Counted from the stretch's first letter, positions 6,449 to 64,000 are shown. The stretch is DNA of 64,000 bases from Arcobacter aquimarinus (GCF_013177635.1 NZ_CP030944.1:1364001-1428000); one strand, 5' to 3'. Program-made: numbers and translations. The notes: a model not told the origin generated them from the letters alone.

Positions 6449-7120
6449 ATGAAAATACTTGACAAAAAAAATAAAATATATTTACTTGATGATGAAAACT
6501 TTGATTTTCCAACTTTAGAGATGATGAAAGATGATTTAGTTGCTGTTGGTGGTGACTTTCATCCTCAAAGACTAATAAATGCTTATGAAAATGGAATTTT
6601 TCCTTGGTATGTTGATGATTATGGTTATATCCATTGGTTCTCACCAAATAAAAGAATGGTTTTAAATCCAAGTGAGATGAAAATATCTAAAAGCCTAAAA
6701 AAATCCATTACAAGCAAAGGTTTTGTAGTTAAATCAAATGAAAACTTTGAAAAAGTTATGCGTGAATGTGCAAATATAAAAAGAAAACATGAAGATAGCA
6801 CTTGGATAAGTGAAGAATTCATAGAAGCTTATACAAATTTATTTGAACTTGAGATTGCCTTTTCTATTGAAACATATTTAAATGATGAGTTAGTTGGTGG
6901 ACTTTATGGACTTGTTATTGGTGATGTTTTTTGTGGAGAAAGTATGTTTTCAAAGGTAACAGATGCTTCAAAAGTTGCTTTTTATCACCTTTGCCAATGG
7001 GCAAAAGATAATGAAATCAAAATTATAGATTGTCAAGTTTATAACGACCATTTAGCTAGTTTGGGAGCTAGTGAAATAAGTAGAGTTGAATATTTTAATA
7101 TATTAAAAAGTGATTCTTAA
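6449..7120 (+). CDS. aat: Leucyl/phenylalanyl-tRNA-protein transferase
   Basis: The 223-residue LF-transferase adds Leu or Phe from tRNA to N-terminal Arg or Lys of proteins, marking them for the ClpS/ClpAP N-degron route. Family motifs are present: FDFPTLEMM, DDLVAVGGDF, LINAYENGIFPWY, IHWFSPNKRMVL, TWISEEFIEAY, GGLYGLVIGDVFCGESMFS and IDCQVYNDHLASLGA. The Shine-Dalgarno is weak. The gene stands alone between rsuA (divergent) and the diguanylate cyclase (convergent, stops overlap). Confidence 0.93.
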   Translation: MKILDKKNKIYLLDDENFDFPTLEMMKDDLVAVGGDFHPQRLINAYENGIFPWYVDDYGYIHWFSPNKRMVLNPSEMKISKSLKKSITSKGFVVKSNENFEKVMRECANIKRKHEDSTWISEEFIEAYTNLFELEIAFSIETYLNDELVGGLYGLVIGDVFCGESMFSKVTDASKVAFYHLCQWAKDNEIKIIDCQVYNDHLASLGASEISRVEYFNILKSDS

Positions 7121-8286
7121 TTTTTCTGATAAATTTGGATGTTATTTCTACCCTTCTTTTTAGCTTCATAAAGGGAAATATCTGCTAATTTAAAAGCTTC
7201 CATAAAATTTTTTGATTTTGAAGGAAATAGATTTACTCCAATAGAAACTGTTAATTTTAAAAAATTCTCTTCATTATAATAAAACTTATGTTCTTCAATA
7301 ATTTTTAAAATTCTTTCAATAACATTTAAAGCACTTTGATGTTGATTATTTTTTACTTTTGTAAGAATAATAAACTCTTCCCCACCATATCTAATAACAA
7401 TATCTTCTTTATCTCTAACCGATAATAATATTGTATTAGCTACTTCTTTTAGTACCTTATCGCCTACATCATGTCCGAAAGTATCATTTATTTTTTTAAA
7501 AAAATCAATATCTAAAGTAGATAATATATAATCATTTAAATTTAAATTATTTTGAAGTTCATGAAGATAATTTCTATTATACACATTTGTTAATTTATCA
7601 ATAAGTGAACTCTTTTTTATATTTAAATATTTTATAGTTTGAATGATTAAAATAAAAAGAAATAATATAACTATAGAAACAATCAAAATTATTCCATTTT
7701 TCATTAAAGTTATTATTTCATTTATTTCTTCAATTTTTTTAATAGAAAAGTCAATAACTAGTATAAGCTCAACATCTTTCTTATTATTTAAAATAGGAAA
7801 TAAATAACTAATAGATAATTCTTGTAAGTATTTATGCTCAATACTTAAAGGTTTTTTATTTGTATAAATATCTAACCATTGAGATGTTTCAATATCAAAC
7901 TTTTGATTTGGGAAAGCTTTTTCTTTTGAAGAAGCACCATCTGCTAGAAAACGAAAAACTCCTCTTGAATCTTTATATAAAAGATAAGCATATTTTATAT
8001 TAGGAGTAATTAATAATTCTAATTTTTTCTCTATTTTATTTTGTAAATTTTCATCATTTAAAATTTGCTCTGATAAATTTTGATTTTTATCCAAAGTATT
8101 TTGAATTAAAGTAGCACTATTTTTTACTATCGCTAAAACATCAATTGTAGAAATAGAAACCATTTTAGTTTCAATCTTTTCTTCTAATTTTATTGTTCCA
8201 TACAATAATAACAGCAACAAAAAAGATACAATAACACTTAAAACTATCAAATAAAAAGATCTTGTCATATTGAATATTTTTTTCAT
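7117..8286 (-). CDS. Membrane diguanylate cyclase with periplasmic sensor domain
   Basis: The 389-residue protein makes cyclic di-GMP. A first helix (about residues 11-30) and a second (about 192-212) bracket a periplasmic domain of about 160 residues of the Cache/4-helix sensing sort. The C-terminal GGDEF domain has DIDFFKKINDTFGHDVGDKVL and the active motif RYGGEEF (about 300-304), followed by TVSIGVNLF. It starts by ATGA overlap with the small periplasmic protein gene, itself coupled to a TonB-receptor-like gene. The operon order suggests that signals at the envelope control the cyclase. Whether an RxxD inhibitory site is functional cannot be judged. Confidence 0.9.
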   Translation of the reverse strand: MKKIFNMTRSFYLIVLSVIVSFLLLLLLYGTIKLEEKIETKMVSISTIDVLAIVKNSATLIQNTLDKNQNLSEQILNDENLQNKIEKKLELLITPNIKYAYLLYKDSRGVFRFLADGASSKEKAFPNQKFDIETSQWLDIYTNKKPLSIEHKYLQELSISYLFPILNNKKDVELILVIDFSIKKIEEINEIITLMKNGIILIVSIVILFLFILIIQTIKYLNIKKSSLIDKLTNVYNRNYLHELQNNLNLNDYILSTLDIDFFKKINDTFGHDVGDKVLKEVANTILLSVRDKEDIVIRYGGEEFIILTKVKNNQHQSALNVIERILKIIEEHKFYYNEENFLKLTVSIGVNLFPSKSKNFMEAFKLADISLYEAKKKGRNNIQIYQKN

Positions 8287-8741
8287 CTTATATCTTCAAT
8301 AAATTTTTCATAATCAGAAGATAAGTTTATATTCTCTTTCAATAACCTATTTTTTACTAAAATTATATTAGGTCTACTTTTATTCCAAAAAAATGCCCCT
8401 ATGTATGATTTGTTATGTAAAAGTTTTTGATAATTATTTGTAAAAAATAACTTATTTTCATCTTCACAATAAGAATCTTTTCCAAAACTTCTCTTTTCAA
8501 AAATAAAATTTGCATCTTTACAATCATCTACTATAGTAAAAAATTTTGAATATATATCTCTTTCAACATTCGAAATTTTTGGTATAAAAAGTTTTATCTT
8601 ATCTTTTTTCAAAGCTGTAGAAATATTTGAAATAATTTTTGCTTCCAATTCCATTTCTTCATCATATTTATCTATTAAAAAAGTATATTGGCTAGAAAAA
8701 CCAAAAGTTATTAGAGATATCAAAAATAGTATATTTTTCAT
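8283..8741 (-). CDS. Small secreted protein between receptor-like barrel and diguanylate cyclase
   Basis: I choose the ATG at 8739-8741, which overlaps the barrel gene stop as TAATG; a frame-matched ATG four codons earlier has no better ribosome site. The 152-residue product has a signal peptide (MKNILFLISLITFGFSS) and a mixed domain with two Cys (DDCKDANFIF, DSYCED) that could form a disulfide. It ends AFFWNKSRPNIILVKNRLLKENI. I do not recognise a named family. By position it resembles periplasmic regulators such as YfiR, which controls the cyclase YfiN, but the sequence does not show YfiR identity. Confidence 0.72.
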   Translation of the reverse strand: MKNILFLISLITFGFSSQYTFLIDKYDEEMELEAKIISNISTALKKDKIKLFIPKISNVERDIYSKFFTIVDDCKDANFIFEKRSFGKDSYCEDENKLFFTNNYQKLLHNKSYIGAFFWNKSRPNIILVKNRLLKENINLSSDYEKFIEDIR

Positions 8742-10630
8742 TAAAACAACCATTTTAGCGAAGTTGTTACACTTGAAGAACTATCATTAAGTGTAAAATT
8801 ATTACCAGAATCATTATAGATAGATTGAGTAGAATCATTAAATATATTATTAGCTTTCAAACTCAATTTTAAATTTTTATTTATATTATAAGCAATTCCA
8901 AAACTCATATCATAAGAAGAATCAACAGTTAAATCCAAATATTTATAACCATTTCTATAATTCAGTGAAGTAAAATATTCAAATTTATTATAACTTCCCA
9001 TATATTTGATATATCCACCATTATTTGAATTATTAATATTTTGATTGATATCCGTCATAAAATAATTTAATTGTAATTTATTATAATCAGAAAACAAATA
9101 CTCATAACTAAATATTAATCCAGAAGTTTTTATTTTATCTTGTATATTTACAAAACCTACATTTGAATCAAAATATATAAAATCATCAATTTTAACATTA
9201 TGATAAGTGATTCCAAATTTAGATTTTTCTGTGGTATAAACCGTTTCTATCGTATAAAATTTATACTTTTGTACATTTAAATTTTTATTTACTAATGAAT
9301 AATCAATATTAAAAAAAGAAGGTGGTAAATAACTTTTTGTATAAAAAGTTTTTAAACCAAAATTTTCAAATGGTGTATAAATAGCCCCTATTCTATAAAG
9401 TTCTTCATCAATATTTTCTAAAAATCCATTTCTTTTATATTCATCAAACTTGGCATTTGCTACTAGTATCAAATCATCTTTTACTTTATAATCATTCTGA
9501 AAAATTACAGATAAAACATTTTCTTCATCAAAATTTGTATATTGAGGAATAATTGTATTTTGATTTATAACAATATTTTCAGTATTGTATTTTTTCTTTG
9601 AAAAATTTAATCCAGTTAAAAAATTATTATTTTTATATTCGAAAGATTTTGTTATACCTGCTTTAAATTTAGTAGATTTTAAATCCTCTTCAATTTTATT
9701 TGGATAATTATTCATAATTGGAAAGTTTAATACTGGTATGAAATTTAAACCTGTAGCATTTGATTCTTTATAATCTATTTCATTTACATCAACTGAAAAA
9801 TTTATTTTTAAAGATTTATCATATAAAAAATATTTAGACACATCAATATAAAAATCTTTTGTTAAAACTTCACCATCATCTGGTATAGAATCAAGAGAAA
9901 AACCTATATAGTTGTCTTTTTTTAAGTCTGTATATGCAAGGTTGATATTTGTGTTTTCATCACTAATATCCAAAAATAAATATCTTTTTTTGGCATCATT
10001 TAACAATTTAGTATTTTTATAATCAGTGTGGTCTTTTTGATTTTCATTATTTAAATATAATAAATATGACCATCCATTTTCAAGTAATTTGGAATTCATA
10101 ATAGATTGAGAATTTGAACCTTGTGATGATACTTTCAAATTTACTTCACTACCATTTTCTTTAACAGCTTTTTTTGTATAAAGTTTTATGAAATAAATAC
10201 CTGTTTCAGTTCCTGTGGTAAAAGAACTTTCACCATAATAAATTTCTAAATAATCAATAAAATCTAAAGGCAAATCACCCCAAGAATTTGAAGAATTTTT
10301 ACTATATGCAGAACTTATTTCATGGTCATTTATAAAAACTCTATAAAATCCACTAATATTTCCCTTTGAGCCTGCAATAGCTAAATTATTTGTACCAAAT
10401 CTATTTTTATTTAAATTTAGTAAAGGAAGTTCTTTTAAAATATCGTTTAATTTATGATATTGCATTTGTTGAATATCTTTTTGAGAATAGATAAAAACAT
10501 GTCCTAGTTTTTCATCTACTGTTTTTAATGATTTATTATTATTTGAATCATATTGTTGGAGTAAATTATCCAAAGAATTTGAAAATAAGAAATCAGCTAA
10601 TAAAAGCACAGAGAAAAAAACAAATTTCAT
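8741..10630 (-). CDS. TonB-receptor-like outer-membrane barrel lacking a clear TonB box
   Basis: The 629-residue protein has a signal peptide, a plug-like domain (FIYSQKDIQQMQYHKLNDILKELP, VFINDHEISSAY, FIDYLEIYYGESS) and a long barrel ending in TSLKWLF. The segment after the signal peptide (NSLDNLLQQYDSNNNKSLKTV) has no ETxxV-type box, unlike the other two receptors in this window. The plug sequence is also far from the usual RGxxxxRxLxLxDG form. The first gene of an operon with a periplasmic protein and a diguanylate cyclase, it may act as an outer-membrane sensor instead of a transporter. The family assignment is firm only at the level of plug plus barrel. Confidence 0.8.
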   Translation of the reverse strand: MKFVFFSVLLLADFLFSNSLDNLLQQYDSNNNKSLKTVDEKLGHVFIYSQKDIQQMQYHKLNDILKELPLLNLNKNRFGTNNLAIAGSKGNISGFYRVFINDHEISSAYSKNSSNSWGDLPLDFIDYLEIYYGESSFTTGTETGIYFIKLYTKKAVKENGSEVNLKVSSQGSNSQSIMNSKLLENGWSYLLYLNNENQKDHTDYKNTKLLNDAKKRYLFLDISDENTNINLAYTDLKKDNYIGFSLDSIPDDGEVLTKDFYIDVSKYFLYDKSLKINFSVDVNEIDYKESNATGLNFIPVLNFPIMNNYPNKIEEDLKSTKFKAGITKSFEYKNNNFLTGLNFSKKKYNTENIVINQNTIIPQYTNFDEENVLSVIFQNDYKVKDDLILVANAKFDEYKRNGFLENIDEELYRIGAIYTPFENFGLKTFYTKSYLPPSFFNIDYSLVNKNLNVQKYKFYTIETVYTTEKSKFGITYHNVKIDDFIYFDSNVGFVNIQDKIKTSGLIFSYEYLFSDYNKLQLNYFMTDINQNINNSNNGGYIKYMGSYNKFEYFTSLNYRNGYKYLDLTVDSSYDMSFGIAYNINKNLKLSLKANNIFNDSTQSIYNDSGNNFTLNDSSSSVTTSLKWLF

Positions 10631-10708: not shown

Positions 10709-11638
10709 TTAAATTTTAAATTTTTTTTGCTCATCTTTAGATAAAAAAGTCCAAGCTACTATTCGGCTTATTTTTTGACCGTGTGCCATTTCTATTGTTT
10801 TTACTTCTACTGCTTTTATATCTTTTAATGCTTTATAAATAAAAGGAAGATTCTCTTTTTTTGATACAAGAGTTGTAAACCAAAGACAATTCTTTGAAAA
10901 CTCCAAACTCTCTTTTATCATATTTTTAATAAATGTTATTTCTCCACCTTCACACCAAAGTTCATTGTTTTTTCCACCAAAATTCAAAGCACTTTTTGTA
11001 CTTTTTTGTTTTGTGAGGTTTTGAACTTTTCTTTTGTTTCCTGCTAATGCTTCATCTAATGATTTATGAAAAGGTGGATTGCACAAGGTAAAATCATATT
11101 TTTCATCTTTATTGATAATATTTACAAAAATATTAGAAGGATTTTCTTGCTGTTTTACTTTGATATTTTCTTTTAAAATTTCATTTGAATTTATGATATT
11201 TAAAACTGATTCAATAGAAACTTTTTCTATATCACTTCCTAAAAACTGCCAACCATAAATGCTAACACCAATAATAGGATAGATACAATTTGCTCCAACT
11301 CCAACATCTAAACCTTTTATAGCTTTTCCTTTAGGAATTTTTCCATTGTTATTTGAAGCTAACAAATCAGCAATATGATGAATATAATCAGCTCGTCCAG
11401 GAATTGGAGGACATAAATATCCTTTTGGAATTTCCCAATTTTTGATTCCATAAAAATGCGATAATAAGGCTTTATTTAAAGCAATAACAGCATCAGGATT
11501 GGCAAAGTCTATTGATAAATCACCATATTTATTTGGTTTTACAAACTCTTTTAGACTATCTTGAGATTTTATTAAAGTAGTAAAATCATACCTATTATTA
11601 TGAAAATTTCTGGGATGTAGTGTTTTTGTATTTGACAT
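10709..11638 (-). CDS. rlmF: 23S rRNA (adenine(1618)-N(6))-methyltransferase RlmF
   Basis: The 309-residue enzyme methylates A1618 of 23S rRNA using SAM. It opens with the RlmF signature [13 protein letters not shown] and has [26 protein letters not shown]. The SAM motif is [16 protein letters not shown] and the catalytic motif is CNPPFHKS (NPPF). [13 protein letters not shown] is another family block. It is a single-gene unit. The 78 bases downstream of the stop, up to the receptor-like gene, hold no further reading frame. Confidence 0.92.
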
Positions 11639-19392: not shown

Positions 19393-20121
19393 TTAGATTA
19401 ACTTATACTCTATTGGAATTTGAATTTCTATAGTTTTATTTGTTTTAGGAAAATTTCTTGAAGCCTCTTCAATAGCTTCGATTGTTGCATTTTGTAAAAA
19501 TTTATGACCATCAACTATAATAATATTTTCAACTGTACCATTTTCATTGATTTTAAATCTTACTGTTACAACTCCTTGAATTGATAATTTTCTAGCTTTC
19601 AAAGGATATTTTACATTTTGATTTATCAAATCTCTAATAAGTGCTAAATGTTTTTCTAAATACTCTTTTTTTTCATCAATTACTGGTTTTGGAGTAACTA
19701 ATTCTTTTGTTTCTTTTTGTATATCATTATTTATTATATTTTCTTTTACAACTTTTTCTTTTGTAGAATTTTTCTGTTCTTTAACTTCCTCTTTTTTAAC
19801 TACTTTTTCTTTTTCTATTTTTTTCTCTTTTGGCTTTTTTTGAACCTTTTTCTTTTCTTCTTTTTTAACTACTTTTTCTATTGGTTCTGGTTTAATTTCT
19901 TCTTTAATTTGCTCTTTTTTTTCTTCTTGTATAATATTTTCTTCTTTTATTTGATTAACAACTGGCTCAGGTTTTAACTCAATATGATTTAAAGATATTT
20001 TTTGATCTATTTTAGAATCTTTTGTAATCATCTTTTTATCTATGAAAAAATAGAAAATTCCAAAAGCAAAAGAACAATAAACAACTAATGCAATAATAAA
20101 AGAATTAAAATATCTTTTCAT
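19393..20121 (-). CDS. tonB: TonB energy transducer
   Basis: The 242-residue protein couples the proton gradient to outer-membrane receptors. It has an N-terminal membrane helix (about 8-26), a long Pro/Lys/Glu-rich periplasmic spacer of KKEEKKKVQKKPKEKK type, and a C-terminal TonB domain with VKYPLKARKLSIQGVVTVRFKI, NIIIVDGHKFL and IPIEYKLI. Its ATG overlaps the ExbD stop as ATGA. The operon also encodes ExbB, ExbD, a polyferredoxin-like membrane protein and a receptor, so this TonB probably serves that receptor first. Confidence 0.92.
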   Translation of the reverse strand: MKRYFNSFIIALVVYCSFAFGIFYFFIDKKMITKDSKIDQKISLNHIELKPEPVVNQIKEENIIQEEKKEQIKEEIKPEPIEKVVKKEEKKKVQKKPKEKKIEKEKVVKKEEVKEQKNSTKEKVVKENIINNDIQKETKELVTPKPVIDEKKEYLEKHLALIRDLINQNVKYPLKARKLSIQGVVTVRFKINENGTVENIIIVDGHKFLQNATIEAIEEASRNFPKTNKTIEIQIPIEYKLI

Positions 20122-20495
20122 TTTTTAGTCACAATTGAAATATTTGAATATTCGTATCTTTTTAACATATCTAAAACAGATACAAAAATTTCAAATTTTG
20201 AATTTTTATCACTATTTATATGAATTGGTGTATCTTTAGAAAATTGTAAAATATGTTCTTCTATATTCTTTAAACCCTCTATATTATTATTACAAAATAG
20301 AGTTCCATCCTCTTTTATTACTATAATTATCTCTTTGTTTACTTTTAAATTTTCAGCATTTGATGCTTTGGGAAGAGATATCGGAATTATTCCTTTTGTA
20401 ATAAAAGTTGATGTCATTAAAACAATAGTTAATAAAACAAGTAATACATCAATAAATGGTATTACATTTATTGAATCATATTTCTTTAGTTTCAT
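20118..20495 (-). CDS. exbD: Biopolymer transport protein ExbD
   Basis: I set the start at the ATG 20493-20495 (MKLKKYDSINVIPFIDV), which has GGAA upstream and gives the standard length of 125 residues; the longer open frame is not needed. One membrane helix carries the key Asp in FIDVLLVLL, followed by a periplasmic domain (VVIKEDG-like IVIKEDGTLFCNN). It overlaps exbB by 20 bases and tonB by 4. Confidence 0.92.
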   Translation of the reverse strand: MKLKKYDSINVIPFIDVLLVLLTIVLMTSTFITKGIIPISLPKASNAENLKVNKEIIIVIKEDGTLFCNNNIEGLKNIEEHILQFSKDTPIHINSDKNSKFEIFVSVLDMLKRYEYSNISIVTKK

Positions 20496-20901
20496 AATGA
20501 CTTTCCAAAACTTCAGCATAACGTCCCAAAATATTATAAAAAATCTGAGAACTAATAGCAACTACAAGTCCAATAGCAGTTGCTTTTAAAGCAAGTGCTA
20601 ACGAACTCATAATTTTTGATGCATCAATATCTCCACTTCCCATAGTCATAAAAGTTAACATAATAGCCAACACCGTTCCAAGCAATCCAATATATGGTGA
20701 ATTTGAAGCTATCGTTCCTATGATTGTTAGATGTTTTGTTAATGCAACATCAAGTTGTTTTTTGTTTTTAAAACTTTTTACATCCAACTTTTTATAAAAA
20801 ATTATTCTTTCAATAAAAAACCAAAATGAGATAAAACTCATAAAAAGTAAAAGAGCAATAACTCCATAATCTATAAGATTTTTTAGAACTTCAATATCCA
20901 T
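20476..20901 (-). CDS. exbB: MotA/TolQ/ExbB proton channel protein ExbB
   Basis: The 141-residue protein forms the proton channel of the TonB motor with ExbD. Three membrane helices are visible. The conserved loop is NSPYIGLLGTVLAIMLTFMTMG and the third helix segment is LALALKATAIGLVVAISSQIFYN. It follows the polyferredoxin-like gene by 3 bases and has an AAGGAA site. Confidence 0.92.
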   Translation of the reverse strand: MDIEVLKNLIDYGVIALLLFMSFISFWFFIERIIFYKKLDVKSFKNKKQLDVALTKHLTIIGTIASNSPYIGLLGTVLAIMLTFMTMGSGDIDASKIMSSLALALKATAIGLVVAISSQIFYNILGRYAEVLESHYETKEI

Positions 20902-51532: not shown

Positions 51533-51613
51533 AATATTTTGCTTATGAAATGTATGTGTCTAAAGAAAACAGTACTTTTTAGGCTTTTTTACTTACATTT
51601 CACAAGCAAAATT
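51533..51613. repeat. Two inverted copies of a 20-bp prophage-end motif
   Basis: CATACATTTCATAAGCAAAA (minus, 51537-51556) and TTACATTTCACAAGCAAAAT (plus, 51593-51612) share TACATTTCAYAAGCAAAA. A third copy, CTACATTTCACAAGCGAAAA (52272-52291), lies upstream of the repressor. The first is about ten bases from the host junction. They may be transposase-binding end sites, as in Mu, or repressor operators. The 80 bases between the junction and the repressor stop hold no gene. Confidence 0.65.
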
Positions 51614-52259
51614 AAATCTTATTAATTACTCCTTTTACTCTACCTATTACAACTAATTCATCTACTTTTACATTTATATCTTTATAATCACAATTAAAGC
51701 TTTTTAGAGTGAATGAATTATCTTGATAAATAATTTGTTTGATAAATAGTTCACCATTCACATTAACTACAAATATATCTTTATTGTTTATATCTTTATT
51801 TGAAGTATCAACAAAGATTAAACTATCTTCATGAATAAAAGGATACATACTATCACCATGAGCTTTTATTAGTTCTGTATATTTATAGTTACTATTTATG
51901 TAATCTAATACTTGAGTATCAATAATAAGTGGTTTTTGATCTAAGTGATAGTTTATAGTTCCAAGACCAGCTGAGCCTGTTACATTATTGTAATACTTTA
52001 AGATAATGTAGTTAGATGTATTTTCAATAAGGCTCTCTGGAAGTTGATTAAAGAAGAACCAATTAATAGATATATTTCTTTTAGCTAGAAATTGCATTAT
52101 ATCCAAATATGGAATTCTATTATATTGTTTTGCTTTTCTAAACACATCATAGTTTATATTTAAAGCTTGAGCTATATCTTTATTAAATACTTTTTTATTA
52201 TCAAGTTCTTTGGAAAGAATATCTTTTAATTTTTCTAGAATTTCGTTATAGTTTTGCAT
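51612..52259 (-). CDS. CI/LexA-type phage repressor
   Basis: The 215-residue protein has an N-terminal helix-turn-helix of the CI type (FNKDIAQALNINYDVFRKAKQYNRIPYLDIMQFLAKRNISINWFFF) and a C-terminal S24 autoprotease domain with AHGDSMYPFIHEDSLIFV (Ser nucleophile) and NGELFIKQII (Lys). It should keep the prophage silent and cleave itself with RecA during DNA damage. No Shine-Dalgarno precedes the ATG; a TATAAT ends 5 bases before it, so the mRNA may be leaderless. Confidence 0.9.
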   Translation of the reverse strand: MQNYNEILEKLKDILSKELDNKKVFNKDIAQALNINYDVFRKAKQYNRIPYLDIMQFLAKRNISINWFFFNQLPESLIENTSNYIILKYYNNVTGSAGLGTINYHLDQKPLIIDTQVLDYINSNYKYTELIKAHGDSMYPFIHEDSLIFVDTSNKDINNKDIFVVNVNGELFIKQIIYQDNSFTLKSFNCDYKDINVKVDELVVIGRVKGVINKI

Positions 52260-52264
52260 AAAAA

Positions 52265-52303
52265 ATTATACCTACATTTCACAAGCGAAAAATGAAATGT
52301 AAA
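52265..52303. promoter_or_regulatory. Repressor promoter and operator region
   Basis: TATAAT on the minus strand (52265-52270) lies just before the repressor ATG. It is overlapped upstream by CTACATTTCACAAGCGAAAA and an inverted TTTACATTTCA (52293-52303). This divergent region also lies upstream of the gene at 52323. Autoregulation is inferred. Confidence 0.6.
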
Positions 52304-52322
52304 TAAAACACAAAGGGTTTAC

Positions 52323-52985
52323 ATGAAAAACAAAATATCTTTAAGATTTGAAGATTTACTACAAGAAATTAATACAATAGAATCTTCAAAAATAAAAAAA
52401 GAAAATAGCTATTTTGGAAGCTATATAGAAATTAACAATGAATTACATAAAAAATGGGAATTAAATTTAAAGAATTTAATACTACTATTAAACTCTAATC
52501 CCGATAGTATGTATTATTCAGAACTGGTTAAAATTTCCGAATTAAAAAGTCATGAAGACCATGCGGATATCTTTGATAGACAAAAAGCATTATTTTTAGC
52601 TTTAAAAGATGATTATGAAAAGGGACTTTTATCTTCTATAAAATCTTTAATAGAAGCAGATGTTTTTGATACAGAGCTTGAACAAGCTAAAGAATTACTA
52701 TCTAATAAATATAAGTTAGCTGCTGCTGTAATTGCTGGAGTAGTTTTAGAAACGGCTCTTAGAAGCTTATGTGATAAAGAAAAAATACCACATGGAAAAC
52801 TTACAAAAATGAATGATGATTTAACAAAAGCTGGTGTTTATAATAAGTTCCAACAAAAAAGCATTACTGCATTAGCAGATATTAGAAATAGTGCTGCTCA
52901 TGGTAAAGATATTGAATTTACCCATGAAAATGTTGAAAATATGATAAGAGATATTGAAAGTTTTTTAGCTACGTATTTAAACTAA
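52323..52985 (+). CDS. HEPN/DUF4145-like prophage accessory protein
   Basis: The 220-residue protein is the only plus-strand gene at this end of the prophage and is divergent from the repressor. The N-terminal two thirds are helical without known motif. The C-terminal domain (LAAAVIAGVVLETALRSLC, ITALADIRNSAAHGK) has the DUF4145/HEPN look, with RNSAAH as an Rx4H motif. HEPN proteins of this form are often RNases in toxin or abortive-infection systems. A role in superinfection exclusion is possible but only inferred. An AAAGGG site lies upstream and a strong terminator follows. Confidence 0.65.
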   Translation: MKNKISLRFEDLLQEINTIESSKIKKENSYFGSYIEINNELHKKWELNLKNLILLLNSNPDSMYYSELVKISELKSHEDHADIFDRQKALFLALKDDYEKGLLSSIKSLIEADVFDTELEQAKELLSNKYKLAAAVIAGVVLETALRSLCDKEKIPHGKLTKMNDDLTKAGVYNKFQQKSITALADIRNSAAHGKDIEFTHENVENMIRDIESFLATYLN

Positions 52986-53010
52986 CTAAGAATTTCTTAG
53001 TTAGTTTAAA
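52976..53010. terminator. Strong bidirectional terminator in the prophage
   Basis: A perfect 17-bp inverted repeat: TTTAAACTAACTAAGAA (52976-52992), T, TTCTTAGTTAGTTTAAA (52994-53010). It separates the HEPN-like gene from the convergent hypothetical gene. Confidence 0.82.
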
Positions 53011-53012
53011 TA

Positions 53013-53588
53013 TTAATTGTGTGAATTATTCTGTTCATAATCTAATTTAAAATCATTCATAACTGCCATTGTTCTATCGGTAGGATAAGGGAAATATACT
53101 GGAGTTACCCCTGTATTTTGACAAAATCTCAAAACTTCATATCCTAATAATTCAATAGTTTTACCAGTTTGTCGATCAGATATATTACCTTTTCTCCAAT
53201 GGTTAAAATAAATCCTATCTTCAAAATTTGAAACAGCAAAACCAGAAACAGCTCTATATTTAGTAGTTGTTACTTCTGAGATATTAACATCAGGAAGACT
53301 ATTATTTAATACTTCATAAAAATGAGTAGGATCCCAACGTCCGTGATTTCTACATTGTGCTAATGCATTTAATGCTTCTTTATGATTAATATAAGTATTT
53401 GCATATGTACCGTTTAAGGAACATGTAAAACCAATATTTCTATCAACTATAGCAAATAAAAATTTTCTCATTGCTTTTGAATACACACACTCAATATTAC
53501 ACTCTCCATATCGAATAGTAAAAAAAGCAATTAAGACACTTTGTTTATCCATTTTAAATTCTAAAATTGGTATATTTGTAAAATTCAT
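53013..53588 (-). CDS. Hypothetical prophage protein
   Basis: The 191-residue product starts MNFTNIPILEFKMDKQSVLIAFF and includes two Cys (GECNIECVY), IGFTCSLNGTYANTYINHKEALNALAQCRNHGRWDPTHFYE and RAVSGFAVSNFEDRIYFNHWRKGNI. There is no signal peptide or membrane segment. No family is recognised. A clear AAGGAG supports the start. It lies between the HEPN-like gene and Dam methylase, where phages carry accessory genes. Confidence 0.7.
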   Translation of the reverse strand: MNFTNIPILEFKMDKQSVLIAFFTIRYGECNIECVYSKAMRKFLFAIVDRNIGFTCSLNGTYANTYINHKEALNALAQCRNHGRWDPTHFYEVLNNSLPDVNISEVTTTKYRAVSGFAVSNFEDRIYFNHWRKGNISDRQTGKTIELLGYEVLRFCQNTGVTPVYFPYPTDRTMAVMNDFKLDYEQNNSHN

Positions 53589-53675
53589 CTTATCTCCTTA
53601 AAAAATATAGTAAAGTATATCATCAATAAAAATAACATTTATTAAATATTACTTAAAAGATAGCATTTATTCTTG

Positions 53676-54458
53676 CTAATAATTAGTTATAAACACCTCA
53701 TTTACACTCTTTTTCTTACCATGCATATTTGCTCCAAGAGTGTATCTTATCTCTTTTGTAGATCTAATATTAAAACCTTTATATAGCTCTCGAACTATTA
53801 CACTATCATTATAAGAAAGTAGAAATTTACCTTTAATTTTTGATAGTAAATCTGCTAACTCTTCATGTTCCGCTATTCCAAATCCTCCTGTATTTTTATA
53901 GTAGCTTTCAGTTGATACATAAGGTGGATCTACATAAAAGAATGCATCATCTTTATCATATAAAGGTATGAGTTTATTAAAGCTCATATTCTCTATAGTT
54001 ACACCTTTTAATCTTTCACTTATTAGTTTAAAATTTCTATAAATATTTTTAGGTTTTCGTCCTGACTTTGCAGCCATAGCAAAGTTATCACCTTTAGAGC
54101 CAAAGCTTTGAGTTAATTGGTAAAAATAAAAGGCTGCTTTTTCAATATTATTTCTACCTCTTAAATGTTTTGATTTAATATCATTAAATATCTCTCTTGA
54201 GATAAGTAAATCATTTAAATAAATACTCAAGCTTTGTGGATTATTTCTTATGGCTCTGTGAAGATTTACAAGTTCACTATTTATATCATTAAACACTTCA
54301 AGTTTACTTGGTTCTTTTTGATAAAGAACACTTCCAGCTCCTCCAAAAACTTCTATATAAGTTTTATGATCTTGTGGAATTAGATCAATAATATCACGAG
54401 CAAGTTGAGTTTTGCCACCTACCCAACCAAATGGGGCTTTTAGTTTAGTTCTTTGCAT
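53676..54458 (-). CDS. DNA adenine methylase (Dam/DpnIIA type)
   Basis: The 260-residue methyltransferase has the D12 family motifs: PFGWVGGKTQLARDIIDLIP (SAM binding, about residues 9-28), YIEVFGGAGSVLYQK, FNDINSELVNLHR, and the catalytic DPPYVSTESYYKNTGGF (DPPY about 187-190). GATC is the most likely target. In Mu-like prophages a modification gene at the late end protects phage DNA. There is no partner restriction nuclease. Confidence 0.9.
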   Translation of the reverse strand: MQRTKLKAPFGWVGGKTQLARDIIDLIPQDHKTYIEVFGGAGSVLYQKEPSKLEVFNDINSELVNLHRAIRNNPQSLSIYLNDLLISREIFNDIKSKHLRGRNNIEKAAFYFYQLTQSFGSKGDNFAMAAKSGRKPKNIYRNFKLISERLKGVTIENMSFNKLIPLYDKDDAFFYVDPPYVSTESYYKNTGGFGIAEHEELADLLSKIKGKFLLSYNDSVIVRELYKGFNIRSTKEIRYTLGANMHGKKKSVNEVFITNY

Positions 54459-54563
54459 AATTATCCTTTGTGAAAAAACATCACTTTTTTAAAGCTAATG
54501 TTCTTTTTTTTGTAAAATTTTTATGCAGCTATCAGGGGTGGTGGCTGTGGTTTATTGTGAGAT

Positions 54564-55505
54564 TTAGTTTTCTATTTCTATTGATACTCTCCAACCAGAG
54601 ATTGTATCTATATCATGATTAACACTTTTAATATGATACTCTCCATCATCTTCTACTGTTCCAGATAGATTTAAAACTCCACCTGCATAACATACAAATC
54701 CAGCACAAGATATATTTCCAACTTTAGTTTGACTTGAAGCTTTTTGAAGAGCTGCAGTTGCTTTTGCTTTTGCATCTGCTTCATTTTGATATGAGCCTCT
54801 TATATGTTTAACTGGCTCACCATCACCAACTGTTACACTTTTTTGAATATTCTCTTTTGTGTCATGCCAAGAGGCTACACAAGAGTTATATTTTTCTTTA
54901 TTTGTATTTTCTATATCATACGAGCTAATATCTTTTATATTTAAACTATATCTAGGAAGTCCTTCTGATTTTTTATCACCTTTTACTTTTTGCTTAAAGA
55001 TTAAAGTATTATTTTTGATTGCAAATAAAGCGTTATATTCACTTGCTAACCTTTTTAAAAAATGTAAATCAGATTCGTTTGATTGTTCGATATGTATCAC
55101 ATATAAGTCATCATAATCACACTCTACTTTTAACTCTAATTTTTTAGCTATTTGAGTAACTACTTGCTTTATACTTAGGTTTTCAAAGCTTTTATTTCTT
55201 TTTACTTTTGCTCCACTTGAAAAGTCAACTGCAGTTGCACTTATCTCTATTTTGCTTCCATTACTTGTACTAATTTTAGAATTTTGAACAGCAAAAGTAC
55301 CACAAAACATCATGGCATTTTCATTACCTATCCAAAGTTTTATCTCATCACCAAACTTTGGTCTTCTAAAACTTCCTTCAACACTTAGCCTTATATCATC
55401 ACTACTTGTCCCATCTTCATCGTGGAAGCTTATTTTTGAAGCATTTTGATTTATAGTATCTGTTATATCTTTTCCATTTACAACAACTTTAAATCTAGGT
55501 TTCAC
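54564..55505 (-). CDS. Phage late control protein D (gpD, tail)
   Basis: The product has about 313 residues. The P2 gpD/Mu gp44-like baseplate hub fold shows in FKVVVNGKDITDTINQNASKISFHDEDGTSSDDIRLSVEG, FGDEIKLWIG, NLSIKQVVTQIAKKLEL and ESDLHFLKRLASEYNALF. I prefer the GTG at 55503-55505, six bases after AGGAGG and overlapping the X stop as GTGA; the TTG before it is too close. In P2 this protein forms part of the tail spike hub. Confidence 0.88.
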   Translation of the reverse strand: MKPRFKVVVNGKDITDTINQNASKISFHDEDGTSSDDIRLSVEGSFRRPKFGDEIKLWIGNENAMMFCGTFAVQNSKISTSNGSKIEISATAVDFSSGAKVKRNKSFENLSIKQVVTQIAKKLELKVECDYDDLYVIHIEQSNESDLHFLKRLASEYNALFAIKNNTLIFKQKVKGDKKSEGLPRYSLNIKDISSYDIENTNKEKYNSCVASWHDTKENIQKSVTVGDGEPVKHIRGSYQNEADAKAKATAALQKASSQTKVGNISCAGFVCYAGGVLNLSGTVEDDGEYHIKSVNHDIDTISGWRVSIEIEN

Positions 55506-55708
55506 CAAAGACCTCCTACTTCACTATATTCATCTTTTTTATCTTCTAGCTCTTCAAGTTCAGGAAGTTCTATAACATCACCTAAGTCTAAAAAAACTTT
55601 AGTGATACTGTTTAATTCTAAAACTTTTTGAAAATGCTCTAACGAGCCATAATGAGCATACACTATTTCATCTAATCTTTTATTTTCTTGTGTAACAGTT
55701 AGTATCAT
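55502..55708 (-). CDS. Phage tail protein X
   Basis: The product has about 68 residues and a LysM-like fold of the tail X family: ILTVTQENKRLDEIVYAHYGSLEHFQKVLELNS, then FLDLGDVIELPELEE. It binds peptidoglycan or joins the tail hub. The ATG at 55706-55708 overlaps the U stop as ATGA; an ATG three codons upstream is possible. Confidence 0.85.
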   Translation of the reverse strand: MILTVTQENKRLDEIVYAHYGSLEHFQKVLELNSITKVFLDLGDVIELPELEELEDKKDEYSEVGGLW

Positions 55709-56073
55709 TTGTACCATCTTTCGAGTTCCACACTAAAACCTTGCTCTATATATTCGCCTGTTTTTATAAACCTGCTCATATCTTTTCTAAGATTTTTTAT
55801 TACAACTAGTACAGGTTGAGTGTTTGTAAGGCTTAAAAGAACTGGTTCTTGAAGCTCTCCAATCTTTTCTAACTTATCAAAAGTATAAATAGATTTCATA
55901 ACTAAAGTACCAGATAATGTAAAACTAGTTTTTGGTTTAGTTGCTGCTTGATGGTATGAATAATTTGCTATTCTATCTGAGCTAATCCACCCAAAATCTA
56001 TCTGCTTTGAGAGTTGATTAAACTCTGATTTATTCATTTTAAAATCAAAATCACCTAGCATACCTAAAATCAT
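55705..56073 (-). CDS. Phage tail protein U
   Basis: The 122-residue protein matches the P2 gpU family (MILGMLGDFDFKMNKSEFNQLSKQIDFGWISSDRI, IGELQEPVLLSLTN, FIKTGEYIEQGFSVELERWY). It completes the tail end. It overlaps the tape measure stop and the X start, keeping the P2 order T-U-X-D. Confidence 0.88.
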   Translation of the reverse strand: MILGMLGDFDFKMNKSEFNQLSKQIDFGWISSDRIANYSYHQAATKPKTSFTLSGTLVMKSIYTFDKLEKIGELQEPVLLSLTNTQPVLVVIKNLRKDMSRFIKTGEYIEQGFSVELERWYK

Positions 56074-58088
56074 CAGTCTATATCCTCATACTGTTTATTT
56101 TTATTTTTTTGTTCTACTTTTTTCATTTCTTTTTCTATATCAAATCCATCAGATGGATTATTAACTGTTATATTATAAATTGGCGTGTTGTTTATAGTTT
56201 TTGTACCTGTTGTTTCATTTACTTTTGGAATAGTTGGTAAAGAACTTGGTTCTGTAGCTTCATCTTTTTTGCCATAAATTGATAAATAATATTTATATTT
56301 TTCTTCATCAAAATTTTCTTTTTCTGATTTATCTTTATCTTCTTTTTCTTTTGCGTTAGCAATTTCCTTTGCTTTTTGTTGCTTTGCATCTATCTCTTTA
56401 AAAGCTTTTAGTTCCTCTTTAGTTACCATTCCAAAAATATTACCTAGTTCCATTAGCATAGGTTTAGCCCATGCAAACTTTTCTTTTAACCCTTCCCAAA
56501 AATCATTTAGTGCTTTTGTTGGATTATCCCAAAGAGCACTCATAAATTTACTAATTGGCTCCCAATACTCATATACAAATCCAGCACCTATAAGTAAAAG
56601 ACCTATTCCTGTTGCTCCCATAAAAGCTCTAACTCCTATTTTTGCAAAATTTAAAGCAGCTGTTAATAGTAATAAACCTTTTCTAGCAATCAACAATCCA
56701 CTTAATGCAAAACTTCCCATAAAGCCTAAAGTAGAAAATGCAATACCTAAACCTATAACCCCAAATGTTGCACCAAACACAACTTTAGTAAGAACTGGAT
56801 ATTTAGTAGTGGCATCTGCTAAACTATTAGTCCCACTTCTTAGTGGAGTAAGAATAGAATTTAAAGCTGGTAATAAAACACTTCCAATATTTATACCAAT
56901 CTCAGCAATACCATTTTTAAAAAGTGTCATACTATTTGCTGTTGTTTTACTTCTAACATCAAACTCTCTTGTCATACTTCCCGCATACTTAGTCTTATCA
57001 GATAAATGTTCTATTGCATCTGTATAATTATGTAATCCTACTGTTAAAAGTGCTACATCATCAGCATACTCTTGTCCGAACATATCACTTAAAAGTCCTA
57101 GCTTTTCATCATCAGCTACATCTTTTATTCTTGTTAAAAAATCAACTATTGCACCTTGGGCATTATTTGAAATATTTTCCTTTAACTCTTCACTACTTAG
57201 TCCTATTTGATTTAGTGCATTTTGAAATTTTTCACCTTGTTTATCTGCTGTTCCAAGTTTTTGTAAAATAGCATTTATAGCAGTTCCTGCAACTTCAGCA
57301 GGTTTTCCCATAGCTAAAAATGCACTTGCTAAACTTGCTGTTTGTTCTGCACTTATTCCAAAAACTTTTGAAGTTCCACCTACTCTTGATAAAACATCTA
57401 CTAAATCTTTTGCTTTACTAGCACTCTTGTCTGATAAGTGATTTAAGGCATCTCCTAAACTTGAAATACCATCTAAACTTAAACCAAAAATATTCATAAG
57501 TGTGGCACTTGACTCACCAGCTTCTTTTGTGCTCATATCGAAAGCTGTACTCATTTTTGCAGTAGTTTTAGTAAAATCAAGCAACTTATCTTTTGTGATA
57601 CCTAACTGTCCACCAGCTGCAACTATTTCAGCTAAGCCTGTTGCATTTATAGGAATAGATCTAGTCATTTTTAAAATAGATTGTTCAAAAGCTTTTGCTT
57701 CATCAGATGAATCAAAATTAACCACTTTATTTACATCAGCCATGCTAGATTCAAAATCTATTGCTAGTTTCATAGGAACTGCAACTGTAGTACCAAAAGC
57801 CACTTTATCCATAATAGAACTTTTAAAATTGTTTCTATAATCTTTTAAAGCTCCTAATTGAAGATTTGCTTTATCCATCTTAGACTGAATAGATGAAAAC
57901 TTTTCTAAATCTTTTGTTGTATTTTGTATTTGAGAAGATGCCTTCTTAAAAGTATCTGTAATCCCTAGCTTTATTTTTCCTAGAGTTGATAATTTAGGAT
58001 TTAGTTCATCTATAGATTTAGTAGTATCTTTAAAAGCACCAAAACCTTTAAAAACAGCTCCTATTTCTATACCTAAACCTATTTTCAT
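56073..58088 (-). CDS. Phage tail tape measure protein
   Basis: The 671-residue protein sets tail length. The TP901-type core is present (FESSMADVNKVVNFDSSDEAKAFEQ, AAGGQLGITKDKLLDFTKTTAKMSTAFDMS, AGTAINAILQKLG), with hydrophobic segments in the middle (VVFGATFGVIGLGIAFSTLGF, ATGIGLLLIGAGFVYEYW). The tail part is charged. The ATG overlaps the E' stop (ATGA). Confidence 0.9.
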   Translation of the reverse strand: MKIGLGIEIGAVFKGFGAFKDTTKSIDELNPKLSTLGKIKLGITDTFKKASSQIQNTTKDLEKFSSIQSKMDKANLQLGALKDYRNNFKSSIMDKVAFGTTVAVPMKLAIDFESSMADVNKVVNFDSSDEAKAFEQSILKMTRSIPINATGLAEIVAAGGQLGITKDKLLDFTKTTAKMSTAFDMSTKEAGESSATLMNIFGLSLDGISSLGDALNHLSDKSASKAKDLVDVLSRVGGTSKVFGISAEQTASLASAFLAMGKPAEVAGTAINAILQKLGTADKQGEKFQNALNQIGLSSEELKENISNNAQGAIVDFLTRIKDVADDEKLGLLSDMFGQEYADDVALLTVGLHNYTDAIEHLSDKTKYAGSMTREFDVRSKTTANSMTLFKNGIAEIGINIGSVLLPALNSILTPLRSGTNSLADATTKYPVLTKVVFGATFGVIGLGIAFSTLGFMGSFALSGLLIARKGLLLLTAALNFAKIGVRAFMGATGIGLLLIGAGFVYEYWEPISKFMSALWDNPTKALNDFWEGLKEKFAWAKPMLMELGNIFGMVTKEELKAFKEIDAKQQKAKEIANAKEKEDKDKSEKENFDEEKYKYYLSIYGKKDEATEPSSLPTIPKVNETTGTKTINNTPIYNITVNNPSDGFDIEKEMKKVEQKNKNKQYEDID

Positions 58089-58527
58089 TTATCAACCTTT
58101 GGAATATAATTTTTACTGTCTTCTATAAAAAACATAAACTCGCTAACTTTCAACTTCATAATATCTTTAAAACTAAAGTGATAAATATATCCTATAAGCC
58201 CAGCACCTTGTAGGATATATTCTTTAGTCAAGCCTAAGACAAAAAAGGCTTAACTAATTCTCTCAATCTCATATAAATATGAGTTGGTATTTCATCCATC
58301 TCTTCGATAGTAAAACCACTTTTATTTGCTATTAATACAACTGTTTGTTCAAAATCATCATTTATGTGAGCAACTGCTTTTAAATCTTTTAAATTTGGTT
58401 CTTTTATTACAATTTCCGTTATCTCCTTACCACCAACAACCAATGGAGTAGAAAACTCCAATTTTTTATCACCAAGATAGGCAACAACTTTTTTCTTATC
58501 TTTTTGCGTTTCAATATTATTTTTCAT
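58085..58527 (-). CDS. Tail assembly protein E+E' (made by -1 frameshift)
   Basis: The long form joins gpE to an open -1 frame that ends at 58085. The extension begins about five codons after the slip site and reads GLTKEYILQGAGLIGYIYHF, then SFKDIMKLKVSEFMFFIEDS, ending VDK. This looks like normal coding sequence and matches the E' role in P2, where the long form is a tape-measure chaperone. The frame stays open across the E stop. The ATG of the tape measure gene overlaps its stop. Confidence 0.82.
58234..58527 (-). CDS. Tail assembly protein E (short form)
   Basis: The 97-residue protein belongs to the P2 gpE-like tail assembly family (LEFSTPLVVGGKEITEIVIKEPNLKDLKAVA, VVLIANKSGFTIEEMDEIPTHIYMRLRELV). 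It ends KPFLS at the TAG after the slippery site. Short and long forms should be made together. Confidence 0.86.
   Translation of the reverse strand: MKNNIETQKDKKKVVAYLGDKKLEFSTPLVVGGKEITEIVIKEPNLKDLKAVAHINDDFEQTVVLIANKSGFTIEEMDEIPTHIYMRLRELVKPFLS
58240..58246 (-). other. Programmed -1 frameshift site T_TTT_TTG
   Basis: On the minus strand the heptamer TTTTTTG lies in frame as T TTT TTG, two codons before the E stop. It is the slippery sequence described for P2 E/E'. The -1 frame is open for about 55 codons after it. Confidence 0.82.
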
Positions 58528-58539
58528 ATCTATTTCCTT

Positions 58540-59028
58540 TTATCCTCTTAAAATTCTTCTAACATCTGACATTAAATCTTTCCCATCAACCTCTACAATA
58601 AGATTATCATGGTCAATTCTTACTTTTGTTTGATTATTTACTTCATAAATATATTTTTTTAAACCTTTTTGAGATACTTTTACATCTAACATCTCACCTG
58701 CTTTACTATCTCCAAAACTTACACTAATTGCACCTGTAGAAATCCAAGTATGATTTTCTACTTTTGTTCCAGTTCTAACAGCTTTCTTTTGAATAATTTC
58801 TGCTTCATCAAGCTTTGATAAAGCATTAAAAATAGCCTCAGGCATAGAAGCAAAAGAACACTCACTATCTAGAGACTCAAACTGTCCTGTTGCATAGCTT
58901 CTATCTCCAACTCCAGTTGTACCACTAATAGTTTTTTGATTTAACTCTGGAGCTTTAAAACTTACTGTTTTTCCTAAATTTCCATAACCTTGTATAAAAG
59001 CATTCGTATCAACTATTGCACTTCTCAT
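58540..59028 (-). CDS. Phage major tail tube protein (FII)
   Basis: The 162-residue protein is the contractile tail tube subunit. Typical parts are VDTNAFIQGYGNLGKTVSFKAPELNQKTISGTTGVG and EVDGKDLMSDVRRILRG. The ATG follows GGAGG and one base separates it from the sheath stop. It precedes gpE as in P2. Confidence 0.9.
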   Translation of the reverse strand: MRSAIVDTNAFIQGYGNLGKTVSFKAPELNQKTISGTTGVGDRSYATGQFESLDSECSFASMPEAIFNALSKLDEAEIIQKKAVRTGTKVENHTWISTGAISVSFGDSKAGEMLDVKVSQKGLKKYIYEVNNQTKVRIDHDNLIVEVDGKDLMSDVRRILRG

Positions 59029-60213
59029 TTATGCCTCCTCAAACATTTTATAAATTTTCTCTGCACTTTGAGATACTTTGTTATATGTAACTTCAATCAA
59101 TCTTGGACTTGGCATATCATCACAATCAACTTCTAAATAAAATCTTCCTTCATCTATTGCTGTTTGTGTTGTAAGCTTCATATTTAGATAAACTTTGAAG
59201 CCATCTACCATTACATTTTGTCCTACCAAATCAGCCATAAAGTTTTCTAAAGCTCTTTTACAAGCCATTAATTCATCTATATCTTTATCAACTGATTCAA
59301 ACAAAGCATCAACTGTTGCTTTAGCTGCTAAGTCAAAAATTCTAACTCTTCTTGCATCTTTCCAAATAGTATTTGTACAAGTTGCATACTCCCAAGAACG
59401 AATACCATTGTAAGATATAAAACTCATAATTTGTTTTTCTGTTAAACTATCTGTCTCATCTTGTTTACCTGCTATAAATTCAACTGGGTATTTAACACTT
59501 GAAAAAGGCAAAATTCGATTTGAAATAGATTTTGAATAACCAACTGTGCTTTGTCCATCTATATAAACTCTTAAAAATGCTAAAACAGCACTTGCACAAT
59601 AAAAATCTGTTTGATTTAAAGTTATGTTCCATTTTCCTAAACCACACTTAGCTAAAGTAATCCTATCTGAAGTAAAGTTTGCTCTAAAAGCTAAAGCTTC
59701 AGAGTTTAGTTCTGCATCAGCATCAAAAAAAGTTCTAGCACCTAAATATGTACAAACTGTATTAATAGAATTACAAATATCTAAATCTCCAATATGATAA
59801 TCAGGAACAACAATAATATCTGGCTTATATGTAATTGGGTCACCTTTTTTACTTGCTTTATTTATAGTACTTGAAGCTTTTCGTAAAGCATTAACTGCTT
59901 CTATAATAGAACTTTTCATAAGCTCTTTATCTTCATTGTTTTCATTATCCAGTTTGATATTTACAACAGATACTATAATAGGCACTATTACAGGAAATTC
60001 ATTTACTCCAAGCTCTAAATATTTTTTTAAATTTCCAGTTTCAACATCTTCGAAAAACTCACTTTTTAGTGCATCTTCTGGACTATCAAAACAATATATT
60101 CCCTCTTCACATTCAGCTGTTAATACCATTGCCAAAGGTAATGTTGAACTAACTTTGATTATGTAGGGATTATCTGCTTTGTATTTTGCTACTATTCCAC
60201 GATTTAAACTCAT
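59029..60213 (-). CDS. Phage tail sheath protein (FI)
   Basis: The 394-residue protein is the contractile sheath subunit. It contains NRGIVAKYKADNPYIIKVSSTLPLAMVLTAE, PDIIVVPDYHIGDLD, NRILPFSSVKYPVEFIAG, SFISYNGIRSWEYATCTNTIWKDARRVRIFD and LNMKLTTQTAIDEGRFYLEVD. An AGGAGAG site precedes the ATG. Presence of sheath and tube shows a myovirus-type tail. Confidence 0.92.
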   Translation of the reverse strand: MSLNRGIVAKYKADNPYIIKVSSTLPLAMVLTAECEEGIYCFDSPEDALKSEFFEDVETGNLKKYLELGVNEFPVIVPIIVSVVNIKLDNENNEDKELMKSSIIEAVNALRKASSTINKASKKGDPITYKPDIIVVPDYHIGDLDICNSINTVCTYLGARTFFDADAELNSEALAFRANFTSDRITLAKCGLGKWNITLNQTDFYCASAVLAFLRVYIDGQSTVGYSKSISNRILPFSSVKYPVEFIAGKQDETDSLTEKQIMSFISYNGIRSWEYATCTNTIWKDARRVRIFDLAAKATVDALFESVDKDIDELMACKRALENFMADLVGQNVMVDGFKVYLNMKLTTQTAIDEGRFYLEVDCDDMPSPRLIEVTYNKVSQSAEKIYKMFEEA

Positions 60214-60240
60214 AATTCTCTCCTTTTTAAAATTTATTTA

Positions 60241-60486
60241 TTACTCACCTATGCTTTTAGCACAGTGGTTATCTTCGATTTTTTTAAGCAAACAACAAAG
60301 TTTTTTATCAAACCAAGTTGCACGACCAGACTCAATTCTTCTATGAATATGAGAGCTTATAGTTTCATCTTGGCTACCATTCCAAAAAAGTACATTTCCT
60401 AACTGGTCAAGAGCCAATAACAACCTCATAAATCTAGTTCTTTTTTTTACATCATTTTCAAATTTTTCTATTAATTTATCATTCAT
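60241..60486 (-). CDS. Conserved prophage protein of unknown function
   Basis: The 81-residue product contains FMRLLLALDQLGNVLFWNGSQDETISSHIHRR and ends FDKKLCCLLKKIEDNHCAKSIGE. I recognise the GSQDETIS and D..HC..SIGE pattern from small proteins found in other phages, but no function is known to me. It overlaps the DUF4376 gene by 8 bases in the tail operon. Confidence 0.75.
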   Translation of the reverse strand: MNDKLIEKFENDVKKRTRFMRLLLALDQLGNVLFWNGSQDETISSHIHRRIESGRATWFDKKLCCLLKKIEDNHCAKSIGE

Positions 60487-61081: not shown

Positions 61082-61084
61082 ATT

Positions 61085-63892: not shown

Positions 63893-63899
63893 GTTATCC

Positions 63900-64000
63900 T
63901 CACATACTATATGTTAAAGTCGTTCTATCTTGAAAAGTAACTTCACAACTCAAGCTAGAATTTACTTCATCAAAATTTGTTACAATTACACCTTCAGGAA
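63900..64000 (-). CDS. Baseplate protein, probably W (partial, C-terminus only)
   Basis: The last 33 codons of a gene that enters from the right edge: PEGVIVTNFDEVNSSLSCEV, then TFQDRTTLTYSM and TGA. In P2 the gene before J is W (gp25-like wedge protein), so W is proposed from order only. The stop is 8 bases before the J start. Confidence 0.55.
   Translation of the reverse strand, partial: PEGVIVTNFDEVNSSLSCEVTFQDRTTLTYSM

Follow-up and report, generated by a model that had tools for sequence, protein, structure and literature searches.

A probable YfiR-YfiN-type signalling operon with a receptor-like outer-membrane barrel in Arcobacter aquimarinus

The stretch of the Arcobacter aquimarinus genome considered here (64,000 nucleotides, GCF_013177635.1 NZ_CP030944.1:1364001-1428000; hereafter the window, in whose own numbering positions are given) carries three overlapping minus-strand genes at 7117-10630, identified by open reading frame (ORF) calling and designated, in order, BAR, MID and DGC. 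These genes probably make up a YfiR-YfiN-type operon that signals across the envelope, with a barrel resembling TonB-dependent receptors in place of YfiB as the outer-membrane input. The operon is conserved, the fold and sequence profile of MID are YfiR-like, DGC combines a Cache sensor with an intact GGDEF domain, and the arrangement of receptor, YfiR and output gene recurs elsewhere. The three genes are:

8741..10630, minus strand: BAR, a 629-residue receptor-like outer-membrane barrel with a plug and a C-terminal Phe, lacking a canonical TonB box
8283..8753, minus strand: MID, a 156-residue periplasmic protein with a YfiR fold (152 residues if the inner ATG at 8741 is used)
7117..8286, minus strand: DGC, a 389-residue inner-membrane diguanylate cyclase with a GGDEF match of 4.2e-38 and an intact RYGGEEF motif

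Both overlaps named in the original prediction, which was made from the sequence alone, are present. MID and DGC overlap by ATGA, and the TAA of BAR overlaps the inner ATG of MID as TAATG at 8741. An alternative MID start 12 nt further upstream, which gives a 13-nt overlap with BAR, is kept in most close relatives.

The middle protein and YfiR

As predicted, MID appears to be secreted, with a signal-like N-terminus and exactly two Cys residues (78 and 96 of the 156-residue form). Both Cys occur in 59 of 81 homologues, neither in 18 and one alone in four; because they are kept or lost together, a disulfide is suggested. P. aeruginosa YfiR has two Cys pairs (PMC4655355), which those of MID do not reproduce. 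Two features of the protein were placed on the sequence:

8364..8399, minus strand: MID signature GAFFWNKSRPNI, residues 119-130, with invariant or nearly invariant columns
8466..8522, minus strand: the two Cys of MID (C78, C96), a probable disulfide

Searches of Pfam, NCBIfam and PDB sequences returned no relative of MID, and its relationship to YfiR emerged from structure and profile comparison. An AlphaFold2 model built from an alignment of 19 sequences reached a predicted local distance difference test (pLDDT) score of 87.8, and its leading Foldseek matches include YfiR and substrate-binding proteins. Aligned with VIA-align, the model matched YfiR chains at Z 9.1-10.2, with a root-mean-square deviation of 3.1-3.4 over 119-124 of about 147 residues; for 4xjy, 4zhu and 4yn7 the values were Z 9.9-10.2 and 3.2-3.4 over 121-123 residues. 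Apart from YfiR and substrate-binding chains, none scored above Z 7.1. HHalign comparison of 81 MID sequences with 14 canonical YfiR sequences gave 90% (P 1.6e-6). The 122 aligned columns start past the signal peptide, and none of the controls (column-shuffled, reversed or unrelated) exceeded 1.8%. With 29 MID sequences the value was 38% (P 3.4e-4), so the result depends on alignment depth. In the alignment of MID with YfiR the invariant I130 of MID is paired with the Phe of the VRF motif of Escherichia coli YfiR, and Pseudomonas aeruginosa YfiR also has Phe there, which we take to be Phe162. This residue has been proposed as the centre of the YfiN-binding patch (Malone et al., PMC3375315), and the YfiB interface of YfiR lies in the same region (PMC4655355). 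The strand of YfiR with which I130 aligns is the one reported to contact both YfiN and YfiB (PMC3375315; PMC4655355). Together, predicted structure and profile support MID as a distant homologue of YfiR.

Two further candidate links were set aside. The canonical YfiR of locus L197 matched the first MID profile at 1e-4 and was considered as a bridge, but the match was gone with the larger profile and was dropped. Matches of L206 and L207 to the larger profile aligned the signal peptide and charged stretches and were not used.

The barrel and the cyclase

The plug-like domain attributed to BAR in the original prediction is recognised by Pfam, and the BAR profile also matches the plugs of Cir and BtuB. 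The barrel itself has no Pfam match (PF00593); the protein has a length and a C-terminal Phe that agree with an outer-membrane barrel. A C-terminal Phe is frequent in outer-membrane barrels, and it is found in all 77 full-length relatives of BAR. About 25 residues precede the plug, and no Pfam domain, STN included, was found among them.

10208..10504, minus strand: BAR plug domain, residues 43-141 (Pfam PF07715, E 1.8e-7)
10499..10573, minus strand: N-terminal stretch of BAR (residues 20-44, LDNLLQQY...S..T..E..G), conserved and close to where a TonB box would stand

BAR had also been described as lacking the ETxxV box, unlike two other receptors in the window, and this description holds: those receptors carry ETITV and ETIKV, and no such box occurs at the expected place in BAR or its relatives. 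A pattern scan of the 77 relatives found no canonical TonB box at a constant place; its 15 matches were scattered along BAR, mostly within the plug. By comparison, a TonB box (e.g., ETITV) is present in six of seven other receptors of the same genome tested. What BAR has near this place is a segment conserved almost as strongly as the plug, at 2.06 bits per column for residues 19-46, 2.19 for the plug and 1.54 for the barrel (77 relatives). Conservation of L23 and L24 is 0.95 and 0.99, and T37 and G43 occur in 77 of 77 sequences. The segment contains the motif [LIM]xxLLxxY (LDNLLQQY in the window), which by its spacing lies roughly where a TonB box would be. Hydrophobic residues at positions i, i+3, i+4 and i+7 of this motif suggest a short amphipathic helix, though the motif may instead be a diverged TonB box.

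The third gene had been described as encoding a periplasmic sensor followed by GGEEF, and both parts were recovered. An AlphaFold2 model of the N-terminal part (pLDDT 87.1) has two transmembrane helices around a Cache/PDC-like domain, which matches the WalK sensor domain at VIA Z 13.3 and DctB, CitA and others at about 10-12. The GG[DE]EF motif of DGC, a predicted diguanylate cyclase, is intact, and the protein lacks the EAL domain that most of its relatives have.

7741..8178, minus strand: periplasmic Cache/PDC-type sensor of DGC, approximately residues 37-182, between the two transmembrane helices
7141..7605, minus strand: GGDEF domain of DGC, residues 228-382

Kinases of L122, L134, L137 and L140 also match the sensor profile in their own sensor portions. 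Because it is found before GGDEF, GGDEF-EAL and kinase domains, the same sensor serves different outputs, as expected if the sensor receives the signal from MID. The presence of EAL changes nine times on a tree of sensor plus GGDEF, with at least seven changes forced by well-supported branches, although the tree does not distinguish gain from loss. The single-domain form in the window therefore has a parallel origin to others. Most output proteins of the inspected loci have intact GGDEF and EAL motifs. In L138, L139 and L150 the GGDEF motif is degenerate and the first EAL motif is kept, the L138 output being a short protein without the second EAL motif; from these motifs the three are probably a phosphodiesterase version. 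A receiver-PAS-EAL protein is encoded after the kinase of L140.

Conservation of the triplet and related operons

A profile search found MID in 88 of 397 sampled Campylobacterota genomes, representing 24 of 68 genera. Within the family, MID occurs in 43 of 104 genomes; the genome of the window has a single MID and 36 GGDEF matches. After removal of identical MID sequences, 88 loci were inspected (90 rows are listed, L035 and L036 being counted twice), and although these loci are not independent samples, their flanking genes differ widely. A gene-neighbourhood search of this kind had been suggested with the original prediction, and it shows that the three genes are not regularly apart. BAR lies directly upstream of MID in 82 of the 88 distinct loci; the other six are a contig end (L040), MID with an output gene (L041, L147) and solitary MID (L062, L148, L154). 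An output gene likewise follows MID in 82 of 88. Its product is a sensor-GGDEF-EAL protein in 55 loci, sensor-GGDEF in 19 (the locus of the window, of this kind, being outside the count) and a sensor-kinase in four, with one sensor cut by a contig end and three kinases without the same sensor (L057, L060, L061). A barrel pattern scan of all GTDB genomes named almost only Campylobacterota, plus one metagenome-assembled genome (MAG) of Proteobacteria, and this single pattern is too narrow to show absence outside Campylobacterota. BAR gave no plasmid match.

Irregular loci were also seen. MID is interrupted by a single in-frame stop in L035 (with L098) and L036, the BAR ORF is split in L048, L055, L126 (apparently by an insertion), L145 and L155, and BAR is missing from L041 and L147, the cyclase gene being intact in all of these. 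Loss of MID or BAR with a kept cyclase would recall the loss of yfiR in Pseudomonas; sequencing error is not excluded. BAR and MID stand as a pair with no adjacent output gene in L058/L109 and L132, and the solitary MID homologues of L062 and L154 are short and flanked by unrelated genes, the setting being the same in both genomes. Locus L111 (CAMCYD010000073.1) has a receptor-MID-kinase operon with the same layout as the one in genome G049 (L061), which belongs to the family of the window; its record is titled as a Helicobacter pylori PMSS1 MAG, a label that is probably wrong.

Canonical YfiR proteins (PF13689) have similar neighbours. They occur in 34 of the 397 Campylobacterota genomes, and in 17 of 18 loci that could be placed a TonB-dependent receptor is encoded in the same cluster, usually together with GGDEF, GGDEF-EAL or kinase genes and in varying order. 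The A. aquimarinus genome itself has such a locus outside the window (L196, G000:C1:1467500-1476500), where a receptor is followed by a 515-residue YfiR-GGDEF fusion whose YfiR domain is canonical (receptor and fusion at approximately 1470055-1473712). In L197 receptor and YfiR are followed by a CHASE8-HAMP-PAS-GGDEF-EAL protein, whose CHASE8 sensor is of the type that YfiN carries. Pseudomonadota plasmids from Pseudoalteromonas, Sphingobium (two), Indioceanicola, Caballeronia (two) and Paraburkholderia show the order receptor, YfiR, then EAL/GGDEF or kinase again, and in a further Pseudoalteromonas locus (L222) the receptor is annotated in two pieces. Several receptors of the canonical triplets keep VTS-type segments resembling a TonB box. 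These triplets have the same layers as BAR-MID-DGC, and in the Pseudomonadota cases the same order; their YfiR, unlike MID, is recognised by profile. They appear to be the general class to which the BAR-MID-DGC operon belongs. In open-licence literature, judged by title and abstract, no paper on operons of receptor and YfiR was found.

A gap of 78 bp separates the operon from its upstream neighbour gene (10709-11638), and the gene on its downstream side is convergent. No terminator-like site was found for the operon, and promoter-like matches were about as frequent as expected by chance. Elsewhere the window contains a tonB-exbD-exbB cluster (19393-20901) and, from about 51600 to 64000, a prophage-like block, judged by eye from translations, with repressor-like, DNA adenine methylase-like, tail tape-measure, sheath/tube and baseplate-like proteins.

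Signalling model, alternatives and implications

The closest known system is YfiBNR (TpbB) of P. aeruginosa and E. coli, in which a periplasmic protein of YfiR fold likewise stands beside an inner-membrane GGDEF protein with a periplasmic sensor. BAR-MID operons and divergent Yfi systems also share modular outputs such as GGDEF-EAL proteins and kinases (PMC3375315). The operon described here differs in having no YfiB, a PAL/OmpA-like lipoprotein, and a plug-bearing receptor barrel in its place; MID falls outside PF13689, and the sensor of DGC is Cache rather than CHASE8. A receptor barrel serves as outer-membrane signal input in FecA-FecR-FecI transducers as well, but in BAR no N-terminal STN domain was found, the operon has no anti-sigma/sigma pair, and its output is c-di-GMP (cyclic diguanylate). 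The Caulobacter HmrA system is a different arrangement. The operon is not YfiBNR (it has no YfiB and no CHASE8, and lies below the Pfam threshold) but probably works like it, and MID is related to YfiR.

By analogy with YfiBNR, a scheme may be proposed for the binding of these proteins, the sign of control and the ligand. MID would use its invariant C-terminal strand to dock on the DGC Cache domain and would set the activity of the cyclase, most simply by repressing it as YfiR does YfiN. A ligand or envelope state sensed by BAR would be signalled to MID by way of the plug of BAR and its conserved N-terminal stretch. BAR would then recruit or release MID; if, as in YfiBNR, it draws MID away from DGC, c-di-GMP would rise. 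In related operons the same input is combined with GGDEF-EAL proteins, with EAL proteins that have a degenerate GGDEF or with histidine kinases. The path from outer membrane to c-di-GMP foreseen in the original prediction, following YfiBNR logic with a receptor barrel as input, has the support of comparative genomics and prediction, through the distant homology of MID to YfiR, the conserved triplet and the association of canonical YfiR with receptors and outputs elsewhere.

Several observations weigh against this reading. Neither the MID of the window nor 29 aligned members match PF13689 (YfiR, DUF4154) above the gathering threshold, and the Foldseek E-values of the MID model are weak (0.009 at best, 0.08-0.16 for YfiR). 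Single-domain and ATP-binding cassette (ABC)-type substrate-binding proteins stand next to YfiR among the matches of the model (Z 8.5-10.2), and because its fold is common to ABC substrate-binding proteins, MID could bind a ligand. The DGC sensor is Cache-like and Pfam did not find CHASE8 in it, a domain readily found in the control, E. coli DgcN (1.3e-33). Finally, since some loci lack BAR (L041, L147) or an output gene (L058, L128, L132), the parts are not strictly obligate.

Other explanations of the operon start from import. NspS is a polyamine-binding periplasmic protein, and we know of no outer-membrane partner gene for the NspS-MbaA pair of Vibrio cholerae. That pair, named in PMC5646818, resembles MID and DGC in that a periplasmic protein signals to an inner-membrane c-di-GMP enzyme. 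BAR might import a solute that MID binds, and loaded MID might then act on the DGC Cache domain in the way that NspS acts on MbaA; BAR would in that case be a genuine transporter, and MID either an activator or a carrier. In favour of such a relay are the plug of BAR, the match of the DGC sensor to the Cache fold, whose members are often binders of small ligands, and the fold that MID has in common with ABC-type substrate-binding domains (3lkv, Z 10.2; 3lft, Z 10.1; 5z6v of R. marinus, Z 9.8). It is nevertheless unlikely, as MID consists of one domain and lacks the two-lobed cleft seen in NspS-type proteins, its conserved features form the C-terminal strand and no obvious pocket, and no transporter gene recurs beside the inspected loci.

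It is less probable still that BAR is an ordinary TonB-dependent transporter, transmitting no physical signal, in an operon that only coordinates uptake with lifestyle. The resemblance of BAR to the plugs of Cir and BtuB would fit this role, and so would two relatives (L033, L034) in which tonB-exbD-exbB comes immediately before the operon of BAR, MID and output gene. BAR has no canonical TonB box, however; cyclase output, YfiR-like protein and barrel stay adjacent across the phylum while other neighbours change, and the loci have no metabolic gene in common. Nothing was found in favour of a gene order due to chance or hitch-hiking, which is very hard to credit when BAR and MID are kept together in 82 of 88 distinct loci and MID occurs, with changing flanks, in 24 of the 68 genera sampled.

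A YfiR-YfiN-type pathway with a receptor barrel as input bears on an existing question. Most divergent Yfi systems have no YfiB, and their outputs differ (Malone et al., 2012, PMC3375315). The outer-membrane input of such systems was left open in that study, whose main text does not mention TonB (PMC3375315). Operons in two phyla are now seen to include a receptor barrel gene, which makes the question directly testable. A bolder proposal, offered tentatively and more doubtful than the pathway itself, is that BAR-type proteins are phylum-wide transducers that work without energisation by TonB. The [LIM]xxLLxxY helix would replace the TonB box and capture the YfiR-type adaptor, the ligand would directly set c-di-GMP or kinase activity, and, more broadly, YfiR proteins would commonly have a receptor barrel, not YfiB, as their partner in the outer membrane. 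If the pathway is as described, receptor-type barrels would gain a route to c-di-GMP distinct from the sigma-factor route of FecA, and extracellular ligands would be linked to biofilm or motility decisions in Campylobacterota.

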